A DNA stretch of 64,000 nt, from assembly GCA_017514025.1 (NCBI GenBank), contig JAFWLB010000002.1, positions 126,346 to 190,345 of the forward strand. The letters run 5' to 3'. This document shows, in pieces, positions 1,387 through 45,648 of this stretch; positions within the stretch are counted from its first letter, which is position 1, and every line of letters starts with the position of its first letter. The translations under genes and the position numbers were made by a program. The stretch is from Candidatus Saccharimonadota bacterium. Lineage in GTDB: Bacteria > Patescibacteriota > Saccharimonadia > Saccharimonadales > Saccharimonadaceae. Under the pieces are notes generated by a model, which searched no databases, was not told where the DNA came from, and worked only from the letters and a program-made list of their open reading frames with translations.

Positions 1387-1561
1387 GCATAAATTGGGGA
1401 GCGGGGAAAGGGGTCGCAAAACTCCTGCGACTAGATTGGGCTATCTAAAATGTGGTTGCGATAGGATCTTAACCGGGAGTAAGACTTTACGAAAATTAGT
1501 TTTTATGATATAGTTGTGTTGACGCGTCATTTGGGTAGCACATTAAAAAGGAGGTGGTATT

Positions 1562-2389
1562 ATGAATGTTTTGCCCCTGTATAAACTGCATTGGGAGGCG
1601 CTAAATTTCTGTAAGGATTTCTTTTCAAACGGCTCGTTGCCTTTTGGCATATCTAGTCTAATCCTATTTGGGTCGGCAACTTATCCGGGCTGCTTTGACC
1701 CGGAGAACTCAGACCTAGATATCATGGCGATTGTTACAGGTATGGGTTCTGCAGAGTTTGATGGAATAGCTAAGGAGTTAGAGCGGAAAGAGCTCTTGCG
1801 TTTTAGCCAAAAGCCGCCTACCGTTGTACGTGATTTCATCGGCGATAGGATAGAATTCTCATTCAAGTATGAACGTGTAGTTTTAGACTGCACTATTATG
1901 TCGTCGTTGTTGCCAAGTTATGAAACCCTGACGAGTAATGCTGTGCGCGACTCTACTGACATAATAATCGGCGCTGTCGTCCAACACGGGATTCTCATTG
2001 CTGGAGATGAACTCGATTTGTCAAATATTGGTTATGAGATAAATCCATATTACGCCGAAACACTGCGGAAGCAACGGCTCTTGCGCATCGAACAATATCT
2101 TGCGCCAAAAGTTAATCGTCTCAAGAAAATGGCCGAGATGGGTAGCTCAGAGGTAATTGATTATTATTTCCGGTACAGAACAACCTTTCTAAAATGGTTC
2201 TTTTGCTACTATCGGCAGTATCCAGTCAGCCTCTACAAACATTTGTCGTATCAGCTCTCTCTCATCCCCCAATTGTCCAAGGAGGATAAAGAAATCCTTT
2301 TGTTAGTTGGCGATAAGACCGTTACTGAAAGTATTGCGTCGTTTGTCAATTTATATGAGAAGGTGGTGGATATAAGCCATAATGAATGA
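1562..2389 (+). CDS. Nucleotidyltransferase-fold protein (KNTase-like)
   Basis: 275 aa. The N-terminal nucleotidyltransferase core shows FGS (residues 36-38) followed by SDLD (50-53), and a third candidate acidic residue is D109 in RVVLDC. A helical C-terminal half follows, as in aminoglycoside-type and other small-molecule nucleotidyltransferases. The expected activity is transfer of a nucleoside monophosphate to an unknown acceptor. Translation is supported by a strong Shine-Dalgarno (AAGGAGGTGG) ahead of the ATG, unlike the leaderless native genes. A possible promoter is TTTACG-17-TATAGT (1486-1514). It is the first gene of a three-gene cassette with a decarboxylase and a phosphatase-fold enzyme. 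The pyrimidine-rich, T-ending codon use differs from that of the neighbours, suggesting acquisition. The substrate cannot be named. Confidence 0.8.
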   Translation: MNVLPLYKLHWEALNFCKDFFSNGSLPFGISSLILFGSATYPGCFDPENSDLDIMAIVTGMGSAEFDGIAKELERKELLRFSQKPPTVVRDFIGDRIEFSFKYERVVLDCTIMSSLLPSYETLTSNAVRDSTDIIIGAVVQHGILIAGDELDLSNIGYEINPYYAETLRKQRLLRIEQYLAPKVNRLKKMAEMGSSEVIDYYFRYRTTFLKWFFCYYRQYPVSLYKHLSYQLSLIPQLSKEDKEILLLVGDKTVTESIASFVNLYEKVVDISHNE

Positions 2390-2396
2390 CGTGCGT

Positions 2397-2419
2397 AGCG
2401 GTGCCATTTAGGCACCGCT
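2397..2419 (+). other. Perfect 9-bp hairpin between cassette genes
   Basis: AGCGGTGCC-ATTTA-GGCACCGCT lies 7 nt after the nucleotidyltransferase stop. There is no T-run, so it is more likely an mRNA stabiliser or attenuator than an intrinsic terminator. Confidence 0.55.
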
Positions 2420-2446
2420 TGCCAGAATTAAACTTAAAGACACGTT

Positions 2447-4135
2447 ATGGGATACAAAGAATTAGCCAAGACTTTATTTGGGAATTATCAAAGTTCGAAT
2501 TTTGCTCGAGTTTCTGATTATTCAAAAAAATTTCATGATGCAGCGGTGCCATTCCAAAACTATAGTAGCCCATACTTTTCTGGGACGCCAAACCTTGATT
2601 TTCAAGATTTTTTAAAGGCTAAAGAGCTTAATTATAAACCGCAGCCTGTTGATGATGTGTATCGAGATGTTGCCCCTCTTCTACAAAATCTTCCTAATTG
2701 GTCTAACCCTGGGACTATGATTAATGTTATCCCTCCCGTAAACTTGGCGTCGCTAGCCGCTATAAATTATGTACAGGGTTTAAATCCTAATTTCGCACAA
2801 GACACCTATGCTGGTTTTTTGATATTGTCAGAACTAGAAGTGTCAAAATATATTTCCGACCTCGTAGGATGGGATTGGAAGAAGAGTTTGGGTCTTTTTA
2901 CCTTCGGAGGAAAGGGGACTAACCTTTATGCCACAAAAATCGCTCTGGCAAAATGTGATCCTGCGTCATCATCGCAGGGGTGCGAAAAGGGCAAATATTT
3001 TATCCTTACGAGCGCGAATGCTCATCCATGTCATTATGAGGCTTGTGACTGGCTTGGAATTGGGAAAGATTCTTGCATAGAAATACCTTGTCTTTCGGAT
3101 GGAACTGTGAATTTGGAGGAAACTGAATCAATTATTCGCAGAGAATTAGACAAAGGCAAAAAGTTTCTTGGGTGTAATCTAAACGGTGGAAGCACAAATG
3201 AGTTATACATAGATCCTATTAAGAAAGTGCATGTTTTATTTTCGAGAATTGCTAAAGATTATGGCCTCCAATATCGTCCACATATCCATGTGGACTCTGT
3301 CATCGGTTGGATTTATTTGTTTTTCAAAGATTATGATTTTAAGAAAAATCCTTTAGGGATTGGCAGCTCAAGTCTTGATAAAATTCACAAACTCAGTAAA
3401 ATGGCTGAGGAGTTTAAATACGCAGACTCAATGGGCATAGATTTTCACAAAACTGGTTTCTGCCCATATCTTTCTAGTCTTTTTCTTTGTCGAAGACGTA
3501 AAGATTATTACGCGATGAACCCGAGTAAATTCCAGGCGATGGAAGATCTAAAATATGGGAATTATAACCCATATCAGACCACATTGGAGTTAACTCGTTC
3601 ATCAACGGGGGCATTGTCAGCCCTAGTTTCGTTAAAGACATTGGGCGTTATGGGCTTTCAACAAATGTATGCGGAGATGTTTGAGGCGTCAGAATATTTT
3701 AGGCAAGAGCTTGCTAAGGACGCTAGGATTTGCATTATCAACTCTGAAAGTTGTTGGCTTGCCTCACTTTTTATACTTAAGCCTAAAGAATATGCGGATT
3801 TAACATTACAAGACATATTGAAATTAAACCACTCTGAAATTGAAGCCATTAAACAATATAACGTCAATTTTGCAAAGTATATTCAAAGAGATGCATATAA
3901 TGCAAAAATAGACTTCGTATTTACATCATCTCGTAGCCACCTTGTTCCTGGCACAAACATAGCATTGGGCACCCTGAAAGCTTACCCGATGTCTGTGTTT
4001 TTTGATAAAAAAGCGGCTGCAAATATAGTGCGCGAATTAAGAAATGAAATTGATAGCTACTCAAAAGATGCTCATGTGGGGGAACTTGACGGGCTTAGCG
4101 CTTTCTCCGATGACATGGTTTACAGAGAAAAATAA
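2447..4135 (+). CDS. Group II PLP-dependent amino acid decarboxylase-like protein
   Basis: 562 aa. It resembles the aromatic-amino-acid/glutamate/histidine decarboxylase family (fold type I PLP enzymes), which convert an amino acid to an amine plus CO2. Visible features: the phosphate-binding region FGGKGTNLYATK, the ring-stacking His in NAHPCHYEACDWLG (H196), Asp in HIHVDSVIGW (D283), and the Schiff-base Lys in GIDFHKTGFCPY (K335). A long N-terminal extension precedes the core. The ATG at 2447 has only a weak upstream purine stretch. It sits between a nucleotidyltransferase and a phosphatase-superfamily gene in the same direction, suggesting a short biosynthetic route to a modified amine. 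Composition is foreign to the region. The substrate is unknown, and a lyase other than a decarboxylase is possible. Confidence 0.8.
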   Translation: MGYKELAKTLFGNYQSSNFARVSDYSKKFHDAAVPFQNYSSPYFSGTPNLDFQDFLKAKELNYKPQPVDDVYRDVAPLLQNLPNWSNPGTMINVIPPVNLASLAAINYVQGLNPNFAQDTYAGFLILSELEVSKYISDLVGWDWKKSLGLFTFGGKGTNLYATKIALAKCDPASSSQGCEKGKYFILTSANAHPCHYEACDWLGIGKDSCIEIPCLSDGTVNLEETESIIRRELDKGKKFLGCNLNGGSTNELYIDPIKKVHVLFSRIAKDYGLQYRPHIHVDSVIGWIYLFFKDYDFKKNPLGIGSSSLDKIHKLSKMAEEFKYADSMGIDFHKTGFCPYLSSLFLCRRRKDYYAMNPSKFQAMEDLKYGNYNPYQTTLELTRSSTGALSALVSLKTLGVMGFQQMYAEMFEASEYFRQELAKDARICIINSESCWLASLFILKPKEYADLTLQDILKLNHSEIEAIKQYNVNFAKYIQRDAYNAKIDFVFTSSRSHLVPGTNIALGTLKAYPMSVFFDKKAAANIVRELRNEIDSYSKDAHVGELDGLSAFSDDMVYREK

Positions 4136-4145
4136 TATTGTTTGA

Positions 4146-4151
4146 TATAAT
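4146..4151 (+). promoter_or_regulatory. -10 box of the phosphatase-fold gene, leaderless (N6)
   Basis: TATAAT lies 6 nt before the ATG at 4158, within the 22-nt gap after the decarboxylase stop, so the third cassette gene has its own start site. Confidence 0.6.
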
Positions 4152-4157
4152 TGTGAT

Positions 4158-5270
4158 ATGAAGGTAAAAAATGACTATACTAAGACTTTAACCAATGTCG
4201 CCGCTTCGGTGCAAAAATATTTTGATTTGCCGCAAAAACATAATTCCTACCATCCGTTCGACTCTATGCTGGAAAAATATCGCCCTGAGAATGTTGTGAT
4301 AATTTTATTTGATGGCCTCGGTGCAAATATCTTGAGCCGTGCTTTACCCGAAAACTCTTTTTTGCGACAAAATTTAAGGGAGGTTTTGACTACAGTTTTC
4401 CCTGCAACTACTGCTGCCGCTACGTCCTCAATTCGTACTGGTCTTAACCCAGTAGAACATGGTTGGATTGGTTGGACTTCTTACATAGAGCCCATTGATA
4501 AAATTATCACGCTTTTTCTTAATTCTGAAAAATGTCACGATGATGAAATCTGTCAGGAATTTTTGGGCGTCAAAAAGCTACTAGTTTCTGAGACGGTCAC
4601 TGATCAGATCAATCAATCAGGTCACGGCAAATCTCTTGAAATAACTTCGTTTAGCGACGACCCTTACGATGACTTGGATGACATGTTGTCTAGAATCAAA
4701 AATGAGGTTAAGGGACCGGGGAAGAAATATATTTATGCCTATGACCCTGAGCCAGACGGGACAATGCATGAAAAAGGTCCCGACTCTCCAGAAGTACGTG
4801 CGCTGATCAAGGAGCGCGATCGAAAAATCTCTAAGTTGGCTACTGAGTTGCACGATACTTTACTGGTTGTCATTGCCGATCATGGCCACATTAAAAATAG
4901 GACAGTTTTTTTGGAAGATTACCCAGAGCTTTTGCGTCTCATGACTCGTACGACTTCAATCGATCAACGTGCTGCTGCCTTTAAAATCAAGTCTGGTCAG
5001 AAAGATGAGTTTGAAAAATTATTTAATGAAAGGTTCGGCAATTTTTATAACCTATATAGGTCGAGCGAGGTAGTCAAAAGTCATCTGTTTGGCAACGGGG
5101 AAGAGAACCCCCTGTTTCGCCCGGCGCTTGGTGATTTTCTCGCTGTCGCCGTTTCCGATGTGACTATAACTGCTCCTGGCGATGAGCCTCATGTCTCTAG
5201 TCATGCAGGATACACTGATGATGAAGTCCTAATCCCCTTTATTGCAAAATATCTACCGCGTAGGTCTTAG
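4158..5270 (+). CDS. Alkaline phosphatase superfamily (nucleotide pyrophosphatase/phosphodiesterase-like) enzyme
   Basis: 370 aa. Metal-dependent phospho- or sulfo-hydrolase fold. Visible: the first metal Asp in VVIILFDGLGAN, the catalytic Thr/Ser region FPATTAAATSS, then DPEPDGTMHEKGP, IADHGHI and HVSSHAGYTDDE, matching the Asp/His metal ligands of the family in order. No signal peptide is visible, so a cytoplasmic role is expected. It follows the decarboxylase by 22 nt and probably completes the cassette by hydrolysing a phosphoester or nucleotide-linked intermediate (inference). The start is fixed by a TATAAT exactly 6 nt upstream. Phosphonoacetate-hydrolase-like or phosphoglyceromutase-like activities are alternatives. 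Confidence 0.8.
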   Translation: MKVKNDYTKTLTNVAASVQKYFDLPQKHNSYHPFDSMLEKYRPENVVIILFDGLGANILSRALPENSFLRQNLREVLTTVFPATTAAATSSIRTGLNPVEHGWIGWTSYIEPIDKIITLFLNSEKCHDDEICQEFLGVKKLLVSETVTDQINQSGHGKSLEITSFSDDPYDDLDDMLSRIKNEVKGPGKKYIYAYDPEPDGTMHEKGPDSPEVRALIKERDRKISKLATELHDTLLVVIADHGHIKNRTVFLEDYPELLRLMTRTTSIDQRAAAFKIKSGQKDEFEKLFNERFGNFYNLYRSSEVVKSHLFGNGEENPLFRPALGDFLAVAVSDVTITAPGDEPHVSSHAGYTDDEVLIPFIAKYLPRRS

Positions 5271-5372: not shown

Positions 5373-5624
5373 ATGGAAGAACGGTTTCGAGTGCTGAAAG
5401 AGAGCGGATACGACACGGTAAAATTGACAGTCGCTATTCTGGAACAAAGCGGATACACCATTAAACGAATCGAGGAAGGCATGGTGCCGTTTTGCGAAGG
5501 AGCAGATGGGCAGCCGGTGTTAGTGCATGGATGGAGCGTTGTGGCTGAAAGGCCAAAACCGGAACAGACACCGTCTGTGCCTAGCCAGGATGCTGCCTAT
5601 CCAACGCCTTGGCTTTGGAAATAG
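5373..5624 (+). CDS. Small protein of unknown function
   Basis: 83 aa; I do not recognise a family. The first half (residues 1-35) is charged and predicted helical (MEERFRVLKESGYDTVKLTV), the middle is GMVPFCEGADGQPVLVHGW, and the tail is Pro-rich. GGGAGC upstream could act as Shine-Dalgarno. The gene has its own candidate promoter and a strong intrinsic terminator 32 nt after its stop, so it seems to be a single-gene unit between the acquired cassette and the HIT gene. It could belong to the cassette or be an orphan. Confidence 0.5.
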   Translation: MEERFRVLKESGYDTVKLTVAILEQSGYTIKRIEEGMVPFCEGADGQPVLVHGWSVVAERPKPEQTPSVPSQDAAYPTPWLWK

Positions 5625-5682: not shown

Positions 5683-6057
5683 CTAGAGTTTTATTTTTTC
5701 TTGGACTTTTTTGAAATCGTCTTCGTTCATGGGGATCTCGCGACCGTGGTGCCAAGTCTCATCGTAAGGGGTCAAGTGGACGTGAGCGTGGGGGACGTCG
5801 GTACCGATGACTTTCCAGAGAGTGCGGGCGCCTAGTTGTTTTTCCATGTGTTTTGATAGTTTTTTAACAGTGGCCATGAGGGCCTGATAGTCTTCATCAG
5901 GGAGATCGTAGATTTTGTCGACTTCTTTTTTGGGAATGACCAAGGTATGACCTTTGGTCTCGGGATGGATGTCGAGAAAGGCAAAGGTTTTATCGTCTTC
6001 GTAGATTTTGTAACAGGGAATATCTCCGTTGATAATTTGGGTGAAAATGCTAGGCAT
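5683..6057 (-). CDS. HIT family nucleotide hydrolase/transferase
   Basis: 124 aa, normal length for a HIT (histidine triad) protein; members cleave nucleoside-phosphate linkages such as AMP-lysine or Ap4A. Visible: the N-terminal IFTQIINGDIPCYKIYEDD typical of the HINT branch, the GHTLVIPKKEV strand, and the catalytic triad motif HAHVHL near residues 90-95. It overlaps the 3' end of the upstream PAP2 gene by 8 bp, so the two are probably cotranscribed and translationally coupled. The substrate cannot be told from sequence. Confidence 0.93.
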   Translation of the reverse strand: MPSIFTQIINGDIPCYKIYEDDKTFAFLDIHPETKGHTLVIPKKEVDKIYDLPDEDYQALMATVKKLSKHMEKQLGARTLWKVIGTDVPHAHVHLTPYDETWHHGREIPMNEDDFKKVQEKIKL

Positions 6058-6541
6058 GTTTGGCTCCTTTGATTAGTTTTTTGATGATTAGCCAGTAGAT
6101 GGCGACGAAAATAGCGGCAAAGGCGAGGGCGCCGAGAACGTCGGAAACCCAGTGCATGTTGGCGAGGACGCGACCGACGGCGACGAGGGCGGTAAGGGCG
6201 AGCATGAGAAAATCTAGGATGATAAGGGTGGTTTTGGACTTGATGTATTTGGGGATGACAACAGCGGTGAGGGCGAAGACGGTGGCGACGAGCATGACGT
6301 GACTAGAGGGGAAGGAGGGTTCGCCGGAGCCGTTGGGGCGGGTGTTCCAGATGAGGAGATGGTCGAAAATAAAGTAAGTGGCGGCCATGAGGATGATCGG
6401 GACGGCAGCCCAGCGGAGTTCGGGGTCGATTTTGGTGAAAGATTTGGTTTTGATCCATTGACAAAGGGCGAGCACGGCAAAAAGGGCGAGCACGGCAATG
6501 GCGGCTATTAAAATAATGTTGGTGATTAAATCCCAGTCCAT
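6050..6541 (-). CDS. PAP2-family membrane phosphatase
   Basis: 163 aa. Type 2 phosphatidic acid phosphatase fold, acting on membrane-linked (pyro)phosphates such as undecaprenyl pyrophosphate or phosphatidic acid. Several membrane segments are visible, with the signature pieces PSFPSSH and GRVLANMHWVSDVLGA (His and Asp of the third motif). A role in recycling the lipid carrier used by the wall and polysaccharide genes of this window is plausible but not shown. The start at 6541 has TATAAT exactly 6 nt upstream, and this -10 box overlaps the stop codon of the upstream iminopeptidase gene. It overlaps the HIT gene downstream. Confidence 0.85.
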   Translation of the reverse strand: MDWDLITNIILIAAIAVLALFAVLALCQWIKTKSFTKIDPELRWAAVPIILMAATYFIFDHLLIWNTRPNGSGEPSFPSSHVMLVATVFALTAVVIPKYIKSKTTLIILDFLMLALTALVAVGRVLANMHWVSDVLGALAFAAIFVAIYWLIIKKLIKGAKHA

Positions 6542-40529: not shown

Positions 40530-42065
40530 ATGAAACGAAGACTTCTCACAATCTTAAAAAACTATAAGTTTTATTTGATTGTAGTTTGTGGCGCCTTGTT
40601 GACTTTGACGGTTAAGCACGTCCTTTCCGTCAATTCGGTTGGACATTCTATGATCATTTCGCTTGCTGTTTTAACGGTTTATTTAGGCATTGTGTGGACG
40701 TTCTTTTATTTGCGGAAACGGGAAGTTCCTATGGAAAAACTTTTCCTCCTGTTTGCTATTCCGCTTGGGATTGCTTTTTTGGTTTTTCTGCCCCCCGGCG
40801 AATCTCCTGATGAGATTAACCATTTTAAACGCGCCTATGCTATTACTGAGGGTTATTTTGTCTCTGAAGTCTATGATGACTTTGGCCATGCTGGGGCTGA
40901 ATTGCCTGTAGGTTTTCAGGATTCTTTAGTGACTAAACCAAAACAGGGCGCCTATACTGAAGTGATTACAAAATTAAGTGAGCCAGTTTCTGAGGAGAAG
41001 GCGTATGCAGCGTTTAACAACACTTCTTTATATCATTGGCTTTGTTATTTGCCTCAAATTGTTGGTATTTCGATTGGCAAGGTTTTTGGTGCTTCGTTGG
41101 AGCTTATGGCGTATTTTGCCGAGATAGTCAATTTTGTTGTCTGGCTGTTGTTGATTTATTTTTCGATTAAACTTGTTCCTAAGTTCAAAACAATTATTAT
41201 GTTTTTAGCTTTACTGCCTATTACTCTTCAAGAGGCGACTTCTCTTGCGCCGGACGCATTGGCGATTGGTTTGGGTATTTTTCTCACGTCTTATGTTTGT
41301 TATTTGACTTATGTTCAGAAAACTAAGCTTAAGTTTTGGGGGATAGCTTTACTTTACGTCTTAGCAATTTTAATTGGCTACTGTAAGATTGTTTATCTTC
41401 CGCTTGTGGCGTTGTATCTGCTTATTCCTGCAGAAAGGTTTGGCTCAAAGCGTGCTAAATGGATCTATGCATCTCTACTCGCTGTGATTTTGCTTGTTTT
41501 AAATCTTAGTTGGCTGTCTATTTCATCTCAGTTCCTAGTTGAGTTTAATCCGGGTGTCGACTCGCATGAGCAGATTGTCGGTATTTTGCAAAATCCGTTT
41601 CACTATCTCATGGTGCTATTTAACAGCTTTAATGTTATGGGAGAATTTTATTTTACTTCGCTGCTGGGCATTAATCTCGGGGCATTTACGTTTAACCTCC
41701 CGACTATTTTCTTTCTCATTTCCTTCGCTTTGTTTGTCATTTTGTTTGCCCAGCGCGATGAAGCTTTGAAGGTTACGGCATTTCAGCGAGTAATATTTGG
41801 TGCGACTTTTTGTGTCATCCTACTCTTGACTTTTACGAGTATTTATATCCAATGGAGTCCTGTTAATCTTTCTTACGTTGATGGTGTGCAGGGGCGATAC
41901 TTTTTGCCGGTGCTTTTGTTGGTCCCGCTTGCTATAGCGGCGTGCCCGCGATCTAAAACTTCTGCGGGTGCCCGACGAGCTATTGTTTCGCTGGATACCG
42001 TTGTTTGTTACGCGCTTACTACTAACCTGATTGCGGTTGTTATGTTCTTTGCGCAGAATGTCTAA
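40530..42065 (+). CDS. DUF2142-like polytopic membrane protein (GT-C-like)
   Basis: 511 aa with about 11-12 membrane segments. The first outer loop has FLPPGESPDEINHFKRAYAI, the DUF2142 hallmark, and the end has VDGVQGRYFLPVLLLVPLAI. These proteins look like GT-C transferases or polymer ligases acting on lipid-linked sugars. Codons are T/C-ending and the usual strong + strand G excess is reduced, unlike the rml genes just upstream. It is the first gene of a foreign-looking block ending at 45648. Confidence 0.8.
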   Translation: MKRRLLTILKNYKFYLIVVCGALLTLTVKHVLSVNSVGHSMIISLAVLTVYLGIVWTFFYLRKREVPMEKLFLLFAIPLGIAFLVFLPPGESPDEINHFKRAYAITEGYFVSEVYDDFGHAGAELPVGFQDSLVTKPKQGAYTEVITKLSEPVSEEKAYAAFNNTSLYHWLCYLPQIVGISIGKVFGASLELMAYFAEIVNFVVWLLLIYFSIKLVPKFKTIIMFLALLPITLQEATSLAPDALAIGLGIFLTSYVCYLTYVQKTKLKFWGIALLYVLAILIGYCKIVYLPLVALYLLIPAERFGSKRAKWIYASLLAVILLVLNLSWLSISSQFLVEFNPGVDSHEQIVGILQNPFHYLMVLFNSFNVMGEFYFTSLLGINLGAFTFNLPTIFFLISFALFVILFAQRDEALKVTAFQRVIFGATFCVILLLTFTSIYIQWSPVNLSYVDGVQGRYFLPVLLLVPLAIAACPRSKTSAGARRAIVSLDTVVCYALTTNLIAVVMFFAQNV

Positions 42066-42130
42066 ATTGCTCCGGTGCGCCTCTATTTGTGCTATAATTA
42101 GTTAGAGAATAATAAAATGGAGAGTTTAGG

Positions 42131-43858
42131 ATGGGGAGGCAGAAGGTTGGTAAAAAAACCGATTGTAAAGCTGATGAGAAATCGCCAAAGACCGGTAGGG
42201 CGGCAGATGTTTTGAAAGAGGGAAAAAGTTTTCTGAAAAAGCACGGAGGCAAGCTTCTCACCTTTCTCTTTTTTGCGGTTTTGTTTGTGTTTGGTTTGCA
42301 TTTCCTGCCCAGTGTGAATGGGAATTTTGATGAGAATGTGGAGCAGAATATTCTATTGTCGAACATAAAAGATTATGCCGAAGAGTTCCATGTTGATGAG
42401 GTTACCGAGGCAATTCATAGTCAAGGGATTTTAGCGATTAGCGTTGATCCGAATCGGGATCATGGTATTGCGCCGTATTATCTTTTTGCGCCTATATTGG
42501 TTTTGAAGAGCAAATACCCGCATATTGTTTCGGTTTTGTGGCATTTTTATACTTATTGCCTTGCTTTTCTTGGCGTGATTTTCTTTTATTTGTTGATGCA
42601 ATATTTGTTTAAGAATAAAAAGATGTCCATAGTTTTGACGATGCTTTATTTTTTGACACCGCGGATATTTGTGGATAGTCTGCATAATAATAAAGACATA
42701 GTTTTCATGGCGCTGCTCGTGGTGATGATTTATTTTGGTGTTAGATTGATTCGAGAAAAAGAATTTAGATGGGCGGTATTGTTCGCGTTGGTCGGGGCTT
42801 TTGTCTGCAACATAAAAATTTTGGGTTTGTTCTTTGTTGGAATTGTTGGCTTGGGATATATTGCTTATTTGACGATAAAGAAAGAATGGTCGACCCGAAA
42901 TCTTTTGTGCGGATTGACTGCCGCTATTGCAGTTCTTTGCCTTTATATAGCTTTGACGCCAGCAATATGGGGTGATGGGCACTTTGCCCTGTTTGAATAT
43001 ATCCAATATTGTCTTGGCAATGCGGTTGATTTTAGTGCTAATACTGCTGTTATGTTTGAAGGGGTCGTGCACCGTCACAGCGAAAATCCTTTGCCTTGGT
43101 ATTATATTCCGAAACTGATTTTGGTGACTATTCCGATAATTATTTCGGTTTTGTTTATTGTTTCCAGTATTACGGTTGTTGTTGACCTTATCAAAAATAT
43201 TAAGCATCGGAAGTTTGATTTTAATAATTTTGTTTTTATATTGGTCCTGACGATGTTCTTAGTGCCGCTGGGTATTGCTATATTTTCAAATCCAAATCTC
43301 TATAATGGTTGGCGCCATTTTTACTTCCTGTATTCTTTGATGGTGATTGTCGGGAGTTATGCGGTGTTTAAGTTTAAAGATTACAAGAAGATTAATTTAA
43401 CTATTATGGTTTTGATTGGCTTGACGATCACCAATAATGTCTGCTGTCTTTTTAAATATGGCATGGCGAATACCGCTTATTATAATATTCTTCTTGGGAC
43501 TGACAATTTGGCTGGGGTTTATGAATTGGATTATTATAATGCTTCTTCACAAGAAGCCTTGAAAAAGTTTTTGGCTTCGGGGGAACTTGAAGAGAACGAG
43601 GATGGTATGCTCTATTTATACTCCACTGGTTTTGGCGAAGTGGTGATTGGCGACATGAAAACTTATATCAATCCGGGGATCAGTCGGAAGATAGTTCTAG
43701 TCACTAAGGATACTATTAAGAAATATCAGGATGAAGGGAAGATAATTTACAATATGTCTAATCCTGTTTATCGCTATAACGACGTTTCGGATTATGAGCT
43801 AACTTATTCCTATAAGATGTTTAATAATGAGGTGATAAATTTTTATAAGGTAAATTAG
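42131..43858 (+). CDS. GT39/ArnT-like membrane glycosyltransferase
   Basis: 575 aa. Basic cytoplasmic N-terminus (about 50 residues), then about 11 membrane helices and a C-terminal soluble domain of about 120 residues. The first outer loop has VNGNFDENVEQNILL, whose Asp-Glu pair fits the catalytic site of GT-C enzymes that use polyprenyl-phosphate sugars. Likely decorates the exported glycan outside the membrane, with the GtrB-like gene downstream supplying the donor. Promoter TATAAT at about 42097 and GGAGAG before the ATG. Atypical codon use. Confidence 0.78.
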   Translation: MGRQKVGKKTDCKADEKSPKTGRAADVLKEGKSFLKKHGGKLLTFLFFAVLFVFGLHFLPSVNGNFDENVEQNILLSNIKDYAEEFHVDEVTEAIHSQGILAISVDPNRDHGIAPYYLFAPILVLKSKYPHIVSVLWHFYTYCLAFLGVIFFYLLMQYLFKNKKMSIVLTMLYFLTPRIFVDSLHNNKDIVFMALLVVMIYFGVRLIREKEFRWAVLFALVGAFVCNIKILGLFFVGIVGLGYIAYLTIKKEWSTRNLLCGLTAAIAVLCLYIALTPAIWGDGHFALFEYIQYCLGNAVDFSANTAVMFEGVVHRHSENPLPWYYIPKLILVTIPIIISVLFIVSSITVVVDLIKNIKHRKFDFNNFVFILVLTMFLVPLGIAIFSNPNLYNGWRHFYFLYSLMVIVGSYAVFKFKDYKKINLTIMVLIGLTITNNVCCLFKYGMANTAYYNILLGTDNLAGVYELDYYNASSQEALKKFLASGELEENEDGMLYLYSTGFGEVVIGDMKTYINPGISRKIVLVTKDTIKKYQDEGKIIYNMSNPVYRYNDVSDYELTYSYKMFNNEVINFYKVN

Positions 43859-43868
43859 GAGTTTGATA

Positions 43869-44825
43869 ATGAAAAAAGAAAATATTCTCTATTTGGTTAT
43901 TCCGTGTTACAACGAAGAGCCGGTTTTGGCTGAGACTACTAGCAGATTGACTGACAAAATGGAGCGGATGATAAAAGCTAAATTGGTCTCGCCAAAAAGT
44001 AAAATTATGTATGTTGATGATGGCTCGAAGGATGGTACTTGGACTTTGATTGAAAAATTACATAAAGATAATAAGTTTGTTGAAGGTGTTAAACTTGCCA
44101 AGAATCGTGGTCACCAAAATGCTCTTCTCGCTGGTCTTATGACGGCTAAAGAATATGCCGATATTCTTATTTCTATGGACGCCGATTTGCAAGATGACGT
44201 TGAGGTTTTGGATGATTTTATTAAGGAGTATGACGAAGGTTCGGAGATTGTTTATGGAGTTAGGTCGTCGAGAAAAAAGGATACTTTTTTCAAAAGGAAT
44301 ACCGCGCAGCTTTTTTATAAATTGATGACAAAACTTGGCGTGGACGTTGTTTATAATCATGCCGATTATCGTTTGATGAGCAAAAGAGCCGTTAACGAAT
44401 TGGAAAAATATAGTGAGGTGAACCTATTTTTAAGGGGGATTATCCCGCAAATTGGTCTCAAGACTTCTACTGTGGAGTATGAAAGAAAAGAAAGGTTTGC
44501 GGGCGAGAGTAAATACCCTTTGAAAAAGATGCTAGGTTTTGCACTGGAAGGGGTCTTGTCGTTTAGTGTTAGCCCGTTGAGAATTATTACGATCCTTGGA
44601 TTACTGATTTCTTTTATCAGCTTTGTTTTTCTGATTTATGTGATTGTTGGACATTTTGTTAATGGGAATGTTGCTGGTTGGACTACGACTGTTGCTCTGG
44701 TCTGTTTCTTTGGCGGGTTCCAGATTCTTTGTATGGGCGTAATTGGTGAATATATTGGTAAGATTTATAGCGAGACTAAGCGTCGACCGAGATATTCGAT
44801 AGAGAAGATTTTGTCGAGAAAGTAG
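43869..44825 (+). CDS. GtrB-like polyprenyl-phosphate glycosyltransferase
   Basis: 318 aa. GT2 domain with YLVIPCYNEEPVLAETTSRL, MYVDDGSKDGTWTLIE, ISMDADLQDD, the KNRGHQNALLAG motif typical of bactoprenol glucosyltransferases, and two C-terminal membrane helices (about residues 228-300). Loads a sugar onto undecaprenyl phosphate. ATG 43869 with AGGAG upstream; TTG at 43863 rejected. It follows the GT39-like gene by 10 nt. A GtrA-family gene at 47224 may supply flippase function. Confidence 0.92.
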   Translation: MKKENILYLVIPCYNEEPVLAETTSRLTDKMERMIKAKLVSPKSKIMYVDDGSKDGTWTLIEKLHKDNKFVEGVKLAKNRGHQNALLAGLMTAKEYADILISMDADLQDDVEVLDDFIKEYDEGSEIVYGVRSSRKKDTFFKRNTAQLFYKLMTKLGVDVVYNHADYRLMSKRAVNELEKYSEVNLFLRGIIPQIGLKTSTVEYERKERFAGESKYPLKKMLGFALEGVLSFSVSPLRIITILGLLISFISFVFLIYVIVGHFVNGNVAGWTTTVALVCFFGGFQILCMGVIGEYIGKIYSETKRRPRYSIEKILSRK

Positions 44826-44847
44826 CGGCGCTATGGGAAAAAGGATA

Positions 44848-45648
44848 ATGGACAAAAACGAGTTAAAGAAGCTTGCGAAAAAACATACGTTCGCTATATG
44901 CGCGTATAAGGAATCTGAGTATTTGGAAGATTGCATTAAGTCATTGCTGAATCAGACGATTCAGACTAACTATCTGATTGTTACATCGACGCCCAATAAG
45001 TATATCAAAACTTTGGCTAAGAAGTATGGAATACCTTGTTATGTTAGAAAGGGGAAATCCGATATTCAAGACGATTGGAATTTTGCCTATAATCAATCTA
45101 AAACTGAATTGGTGACGATCGCTCATCAGGACGATCTTTATGAACCTGAATATGTGAAGTATATTTTAGATAGTTATGATAAGAGAATTCTTATGTATAA
45201 CACTGACTATACGCCATATAAAAATGGTGTTGACGCTTCAGATAGCAATAGTAAAATTAAACGGGTTTTAAAGTTTTTTACGAAATATAAATTTTTTGCG
45301 CGGTTTAGATTTTTTAAAGTTATGTCGCTGGCGTTTGGCAATTCGATAAATTGTCCGTCCGTGACTTACAATAAAAAGTTGCTTGGAGATACGGTTTTTA
45401 CTTCGGAATTGAAGTTTGGCCTCGACTGGGATACTTTTCTTAAAATTGCTCGGAAGAAGGGGATTAGCCTTTATATTCCGCATAAATTAGTGAAATATCG
45501 TATTCATGATGACGCCACAACTAAAAAATTTATTCTGGATAATAAGCGCCAAGAGGAAGATATGACTATGTTTTGTAAAGTTTGGCCGCGTTGGGTTGCG
45601 AGGCTAATCATGAAATTTTATATTAAGTCCTACGATACTTACGACTAA
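44848..45648 (+). CDS. GT2-like glycosyltransferase
   Basis: 266 aa. FAICAYKESEYLEDCIKSLL, IVTSTPNKYI, IQDDWNFAYNQSKTELVTIA followed by HQDDLYEP (DXD-like), and HKLVKYRIHDDATTK at the end. The typical N-terminal VIVPxYN is altered to ICAYKES, seen in a subset of GT2 enzymes. The start is uncertain: ATG 44848 has AAAGGA just upstream; ATG 44833 adds five residues. Last gene of the island; its stop is 4 nt from the convergent ABC ATPase gene. Confidence 0.85.
   Translation: MDKNELKKLAKKHTFAICAYKESEYLEDCIKSLLNQTIQTNYLIVTSTPNKYIKTLAKKYGIPCYVRKGKSDIQDDWNFAYNQSKTELVTIAHQDDLYEPEYVKYILDSYDKRILMYNTDYTPYKNGVDASDSNSKIKRVLKFFTKYKFFARFRFFKVMSLAFGNSINCPSVTYNKKLLGDTVFTSELKFGLDWDTFLKIARKKGISLYIPHKLVKYRIHDDATTKKFILDNKRQEEDMTMFCKVWPRWVARLIMKFYIKSYDTYD

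Follow-up and report, generated by a model that had tools for sequence, protein, structure and literature searches.

Related systems

Chromosomal integration hotspots are recognized by conserved flanks, by empty sites and by genes that differ between sister species. The gap between the genes for a HIT-domain protein and valS, described here in a probable Saccharibacterium, is alike in these three respects. It differs in having no visible integrase, transposase or tRNA, and in the small resident ORF that lies beside the cargo. Natural transformation has been demonstrated in Saccharibacteria, where homologous flanks of about 1 kb let linear DNA in between them (PMC10633639), and the gene content of these and related lineages is continuously remodelled by transfer and loss (PMC8406219).

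The three genes found in this gap each have described relatives at some distance. These are the MntA-like antitoxins and kanamycin-type nucleotidyltransferases of the pol-beta superfamily (gene 1), the group II PLP-dependent decarboxylases for glutamate, diaminobutyrate, tyrosine and, in the case of PanP, aspartate (gene 2), and the NPP/ENPP phosphodiesterases, such as ENPP5, ENPP6 and the Xanthomonas NPP (gene 3).

Organization of the HIT-valS region

The window is the whole 64,000-nucleotide stretch of DNA that was analysed. The host genome is a draft of 0.68 Mb in seven contigs, and the organism is probably a gut Saccharibacterium. Genomes of 0.5-1.6 Mb are typical of Patescibacteria, and those shown from the phylum of the host span this range. 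The three + strand ORFs pointed out in the earlier note are present, packed on one strand with spacers of 57 bp (genes 1 and 2) and 22 bp (genes 2 and 3). The features of the region are as follows.

1-1373, - strand: 5' part of valS, starting at 1373 and running off the window edge; left host flank, assigned from its translation and from 68-88% identity to the HIT-adjoining valS of sister species
1486-1514, + strand: TTTACG-17-TATAGT with TG, a promoter-like site 47 nt ahead of the gene 1 ATG
1562-2389, + strand: gene 1, pol-beta-type nucleotidyltransferase of 275 aa, from the GS/D51/D53/D109 motif and a distant Bacillota relative
2397-2419, + strand: hairpin in the spacer between genes 1 and 2, GCGGTGCC-ATTTA-GGCACCGC, without a T-run
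2447-4135, + strand: gene 2, group II PLP-dependent amino-acid decarboxylase of 562 aa, from Pyridoxal_deC and H193, D283 and K335
4146-4151, + strand: TATAAT (in the context TGaTATAAT), host-style leaderless promoter of gene 3, 6 nt before the ATG
4158-5270, + strand: gene 3, NPP-type phosphodiesterase (alkaline phosphatase superfamily) of 370 aa, from Phosphodiest, the catalytic residues and the fold
5373-5624, + strand: gene 4, a small ORF convergent with HIT, from a fast-evolving family resident at this locus
5683-6057, - strand: HIT-domain protein, right host flank
6050-6541, - strand: PAP2 phosphatase, host gene upstream of HIT, from family assignment

In the host genome, the third codon positions are G-rich as read on the + strand in nearly every gene, whichever strand the gene is on. 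The other + strand ORFs of the window have a third-position C content (C3) of 0.09 ± 0.03 and a G content (G3) of 0.39 ± 0.07. For genes 1, 2 and 3 the values are 0.23, 0.16 and 0.20 (C3) and 0.25, 0.18 and 0.19 (G3), and their G3-C3 asymmetries of 0.03, 0.02 and -0.01 are the lowest three among the 54 window ORFs, which bears out the previously noted lack of a + strand G excess. The GC content also falls, to 0.38-0.42. An excess of T-ending codons had also been claimed; it is modest in genes 2 and 3 (T3 0.38 and 0.40) and is not seen in gene 1 (0.32), as compared to 0.31 ± 0.06 elsewhere. Separately, four more genes with a weakened host strand bias lie at 40530-45648, encoding a DUF2142 membrane protein, a PMT_2-like protein and two family 2 glycosyltransferases; this block is probably a second foreign island.

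A variable gap in a conserved block

The PAP2-HIT-valS block is conserved across the genus. The distance between the HIT stop and the valS start is 14-74 bp in ten sister species, as compared to 4310 bp in the window. The gap measures 390-447 bp in five species, most of which hold a small ORF alone, and 0.7-2.9 kb in others, where the gene content differs. The cargo found there includes an HD-domain protein, a TM2 protein, large proteins bearing an HEFGH-like motif, and a radical SAM protein together with a pol-beta nucleotidyltransferase. It also includes, as assigned by eye, an alpha/beta-hydrolase-like protein, a YafQ/RelB-like pair, ABC-transporter-like genes and Fic-like genes. The radical SAM gene followed by the pol-beta gene occupies the gap of congener G012 (L099, 1944-4165), which is also the sole sampled congener with a gene 3 relative, located elsewhere in its genome. 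No integrase, transposase or tRNA was seen at the HIT-valS site, and no convincing direct repeats or target-site duplications flank the insertion.

The small ORF in the gap of the window, gene 4, belongs to a family detected in 13 genomes including this one (E < 1e-12; 60 congeners searched), always at the HIT-valS locus, with a second, weaker copy adjoining the first in one genome. As the search model was built from the gap-located members themselves, the informative result is the absence of further strong copies elsewhere in the genomes. In about one in five of the sampled species, an ORF of this type adjoins the inserted genes. The members are 63-108 aa long as called, evolve fast and were found in the genus only between HIT and valS. 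Their leaders carry a Shine-Dalgarno sequence (SD), some fold into hairpins, and the terminator is common to the convergent HIT gene. Besides the window copy (5373-5624), the family loci are L092, L093, L094, L102, L103, L105, L072, L077, L078, L081 and L087.

An assembly chimera or a contaminant stretch could give rise to a sharply differing composition in a draft of seven contigs. This source is very improbable here, as host genes lie on both sides within one contig, the right neighbour, gene 4, comes from a family confined to this locus in sister species, gene 3 carries a host-style promoter, and other sister species have inserted genes at this site too. The foreign origin proposed in the earlier note is supported by the composition, by the empty sites of sister species and by a gene 3 tree that places this gene inside gut Bacillota (see below), and genes 1-3 are foreign accessory genes at a variable locus.

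Predicted functions of the three genes

The enzyme classes first assigned to the three genes all held, with different degrees of similarity to known families. For gene 1, the assignment as a nucleotidyltransferase comes from the motif GS...DLD...D (G37-S38, D51, D53 and D109) and from a distant pol-beta-like relative, with no match to the Pfam and NCBIfam family models. This relative, the sole credible one, is found in a Bacillota-side genome (25% identity over 230 residues) and itself matches the Polbeta and MntA models weakly. Gene 1 shares the GS...DxD...D motif with the MntA-like antitoxins and the kanamycin-type nucleotidyltransferases and differs from them in the missing family match and in having no adjoining HEPN toxin partner. 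The C-terminal part is probably helical; the single-sequence structure model was unusable (pLDDT 35). A role as a defence system was rejected, PADLOC having returned one weak match (E 0.0027) to a candidate model. No match was found among plasmids and phages, and a scan of viral contigs gave no relatives. Two weak matches, in G055 and G496, were attributed to chance, since on reading the sequences they lie in a glycosyltransferase-like and a GidA/MnmG-like protein, respectively.

Gene 2 matches Pfam Pyridoxal_deC (E 2.4e-11, 43.4 bits for a cutoff of 27) and has the catalytic H193, D283 and K335 placed as in group II PLP decarboxylases. It falls far below every NCBIfam cutoff for the named decarboxylases (Glu, DABA, Tyr and PanP); for example, it scores 60 bits where 900 are needed for DABA decarboxylase. 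It also differs from these enzymes in belonging to a separate, well supported clade (100/100) that is mostly marked by DFHK in place of DPHK or NPHK. The members of this clade, which come from other phyla and are 23-26% identical to gene 2 over the full alignment, are plasmid-borne proteins of Plesiomonas, Polymorphobacter, E. albertii, Kosakonia, Rhodococcus, Melissococcus and Brevibacillus, plus those of two Bacillota genomes. The decarboxylases of other Patescibacteria form a clade separate from this one. Among the solved structures nearest to gene 2 by profile are an annotated diaminobutyrate transaminase and glutamate decarboxylases. Phage or plasmid cargo was considered as a source of gene 2 and rejected, with plasmid relatives at most about 33% identical and no relatives in the scan of viral contigs.

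Gene 3, described in the earlier note as a phosphatase-fold hydrolase, matches Pfam Phosphodiest (E 3.5e-24). An AF2 model built on 30 aligned sequences reaches a pLDDT of 95, and the nearest solved structures are ENPP5, ENPP6, ENPP4 and the Xanthomonas NPP; the listed Foldseek and VIA matches are all ENPP/NPP, with Z 27.4, rmsd 3.0 and 293 aligned residues for 5veo_A (VIA). Residues D52, T85, D200, H204, D241, H242 and H349 are invariant in 30 relatives, and the Thr nucleophile T85 and the two-metal ligands were assigned by alignment to ENPP5. Gene 3 thus shares the fold, the metal-binding residues, the catalytic Thr and the EPDxTxH motif of the NPP/ENPP family. It differs in an identity of about 20%, in the lack of an apparent signal peptide, which suggests that the protein is probably cytosolic, and in W106, which aligns with the Asn of the NPP motif HGIVxN and is an invariant Trp in the gene 3 family. 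The enzyme may still work like an NPP, yet is a side branch. Phosphonate chemistry was rejected (PhnA, E 0.15 only), as was an origin as phage or plasmid cargo, the plasmid relatives being at most about 30% identical.

Close relatives of gene 3 (44-61% identity) occur in gut Bacilli and Clostridia. The nearest named one, at 61%, belongs to a sheep-ileum Saccharibacterium. This copy groups in the tree with those of the window and of G012 as one clade (98/95) within gut Bacillota, and the other Patescibacteria copies fall far away. The three clade mates have three different gene contexts, and the Bacillota relatives were found to have no consistent neighbour.

Expression signals

The 51 other ORFs of the window start in either of two styles. 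An SD-like motif of at least 4 nt precedes 22 of them, four with the full AGGAGG, and a leaderless-type TATAAT lies within about 11 nt of the ATG in 19; no ORF has both styles together. Gene 1 has an AGGAGG between its promoter-like site and the ATG. Its classic Shine-Dalgarno had been called unlike most natives, which is correct for the full form (4/51) and does not extend to SD-like motifs in general (22/51). Gene 3, with TATAAT 6 nt before its ATG, follows the leaderless style of the host. No promoter was recognizable for gene 2. A search against the RNA families of Rfam returned three sub-threshold matches, none of them credible.

The 57 bp that separate genes 1 and 2 (-21 kcal/mol as a whole) hold a strong GC-rich hairpin. 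With no T-run, it is not a clear terminator, so that co-transcription of genes 1 and 2 is possible. These two genes could form one functional unit, beside which gene 3 arrived separately: gene 2 has no recognizable promoter and follows gene 1 by 57 bp, and gene 3 comes with a promoter-like site and a history of its own. We regard such a unit as unlikely, as no second locus with the pair was found, the relatives found of either gene occur without such pairing, and the strong intervening hairpin could separate the two.

Co-occurrence of the three genes

The earlier note had read the locus as a cassette possibly encoding a linked pathway for a modified amine or a head group. In this compact three-step scheme, gene 2 would make an amine, gene 1 would nucleotidylate it and gene 3 would hydrolyse a phospho-linkage. 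The common strand, the spacers of 57 and 22 bp, the shared foreign composition and the intact catalytic residues of all three enzymes are consistent with it.

The search for gene 2 covered 59 congeners, the 42 genomes known to carry a gene 3 relative, additional genomes sampled from the phylum and about 540 genomes on the Bacillota side. The search for gene 1 covered the same congeners, the same set of 42 and 269 genomes on the Bacillota side, and that for gene 3 covered the congeners together with 278 genomes from across the phylum. Apart from the host genome, no genome in these sets was found to carry two or more of the genes. Gene 2 is absent from the 59 sampled congeners, and gene 1 has no credible match there. 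Similarly, the 42 genomes with a close gene 3 relative yielded no credible relative of either gene 1 or gene 2 (0/42), the gene 2 search of this set being one without a positive control. No donor of gene 1 or of gene 2 emerged from the searches made; such donors may have been missed, since the two pattern scans of genome contigs reach only close relatives.

The earlier note had made its reading depend on the three genes recurring together, and within the genomes that could be searched they do so nowhere. Moreover, gene 3 moves alone and has a promoter-like site of its own, and the relatives of gene 2 keep other neighbours: instead of the proposed partners, they adjoin gadC antiporters in Plesiomonas, Polymorphobacter and E. 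albertii, and a class I/II aminotransferase in Melissococcus and Brevibacillus. The amine or head-group pathway was therefore not supported, and we consider the three-step scheme very improbable. Equally slim is the chance that a single Patescibacterium assembled piecewise, from gut-bacterial genes, an undescribed route in which an amino-acid-derived amine is nucleotidylated and then freed by a dedicated phosphodiesterase. As the three genes do not travel together, they look like ordinary recent cargo and not like a shared new pathway.

Origin and significance of the insertion

The most probable explanation, in which we have high confidence, is that a host-dependent Patescibacterium recently acquired unrelated accessory genes at its variable HIT-valS site. 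Given natural transformation with homologous flanks in Saccharibacteria, the likeliest and most economical route would be DNA uptake followed by recombination through the conserved flanks. Genes 1 and 2, or even all three, might conceivably have arrived as one piece from an unsampled donor, since their similar composition and tight one-strand packing also fit a single transfer.

Under the preferred reading of unrelated accessory genes, each of the three enzymes most likely acts on its own. Gene 1, perhaps co-transcribed with gene 2, would transfer a nucleotide onto some target, gene 2 would decarboxylate an L-amino acid by PLP chemistry, and gene 3, a cytosolic enzyme with Thr85 and two metal ions at work, would hydrolyse a phosphodiester or pyrophosphate of the nucleotide type.

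The locus is an example of how genes flow from Bacillota of the gut to a Patescibacterium with a reduced genome. The empty sites are clean, and the tree of one gene is nested within the donor group. Host-style expression signals precede two of the three transferred genes. Finally, the HIT-valS gap offers a ready comparative system for the gain of genes without visible integrases in these bacteria.
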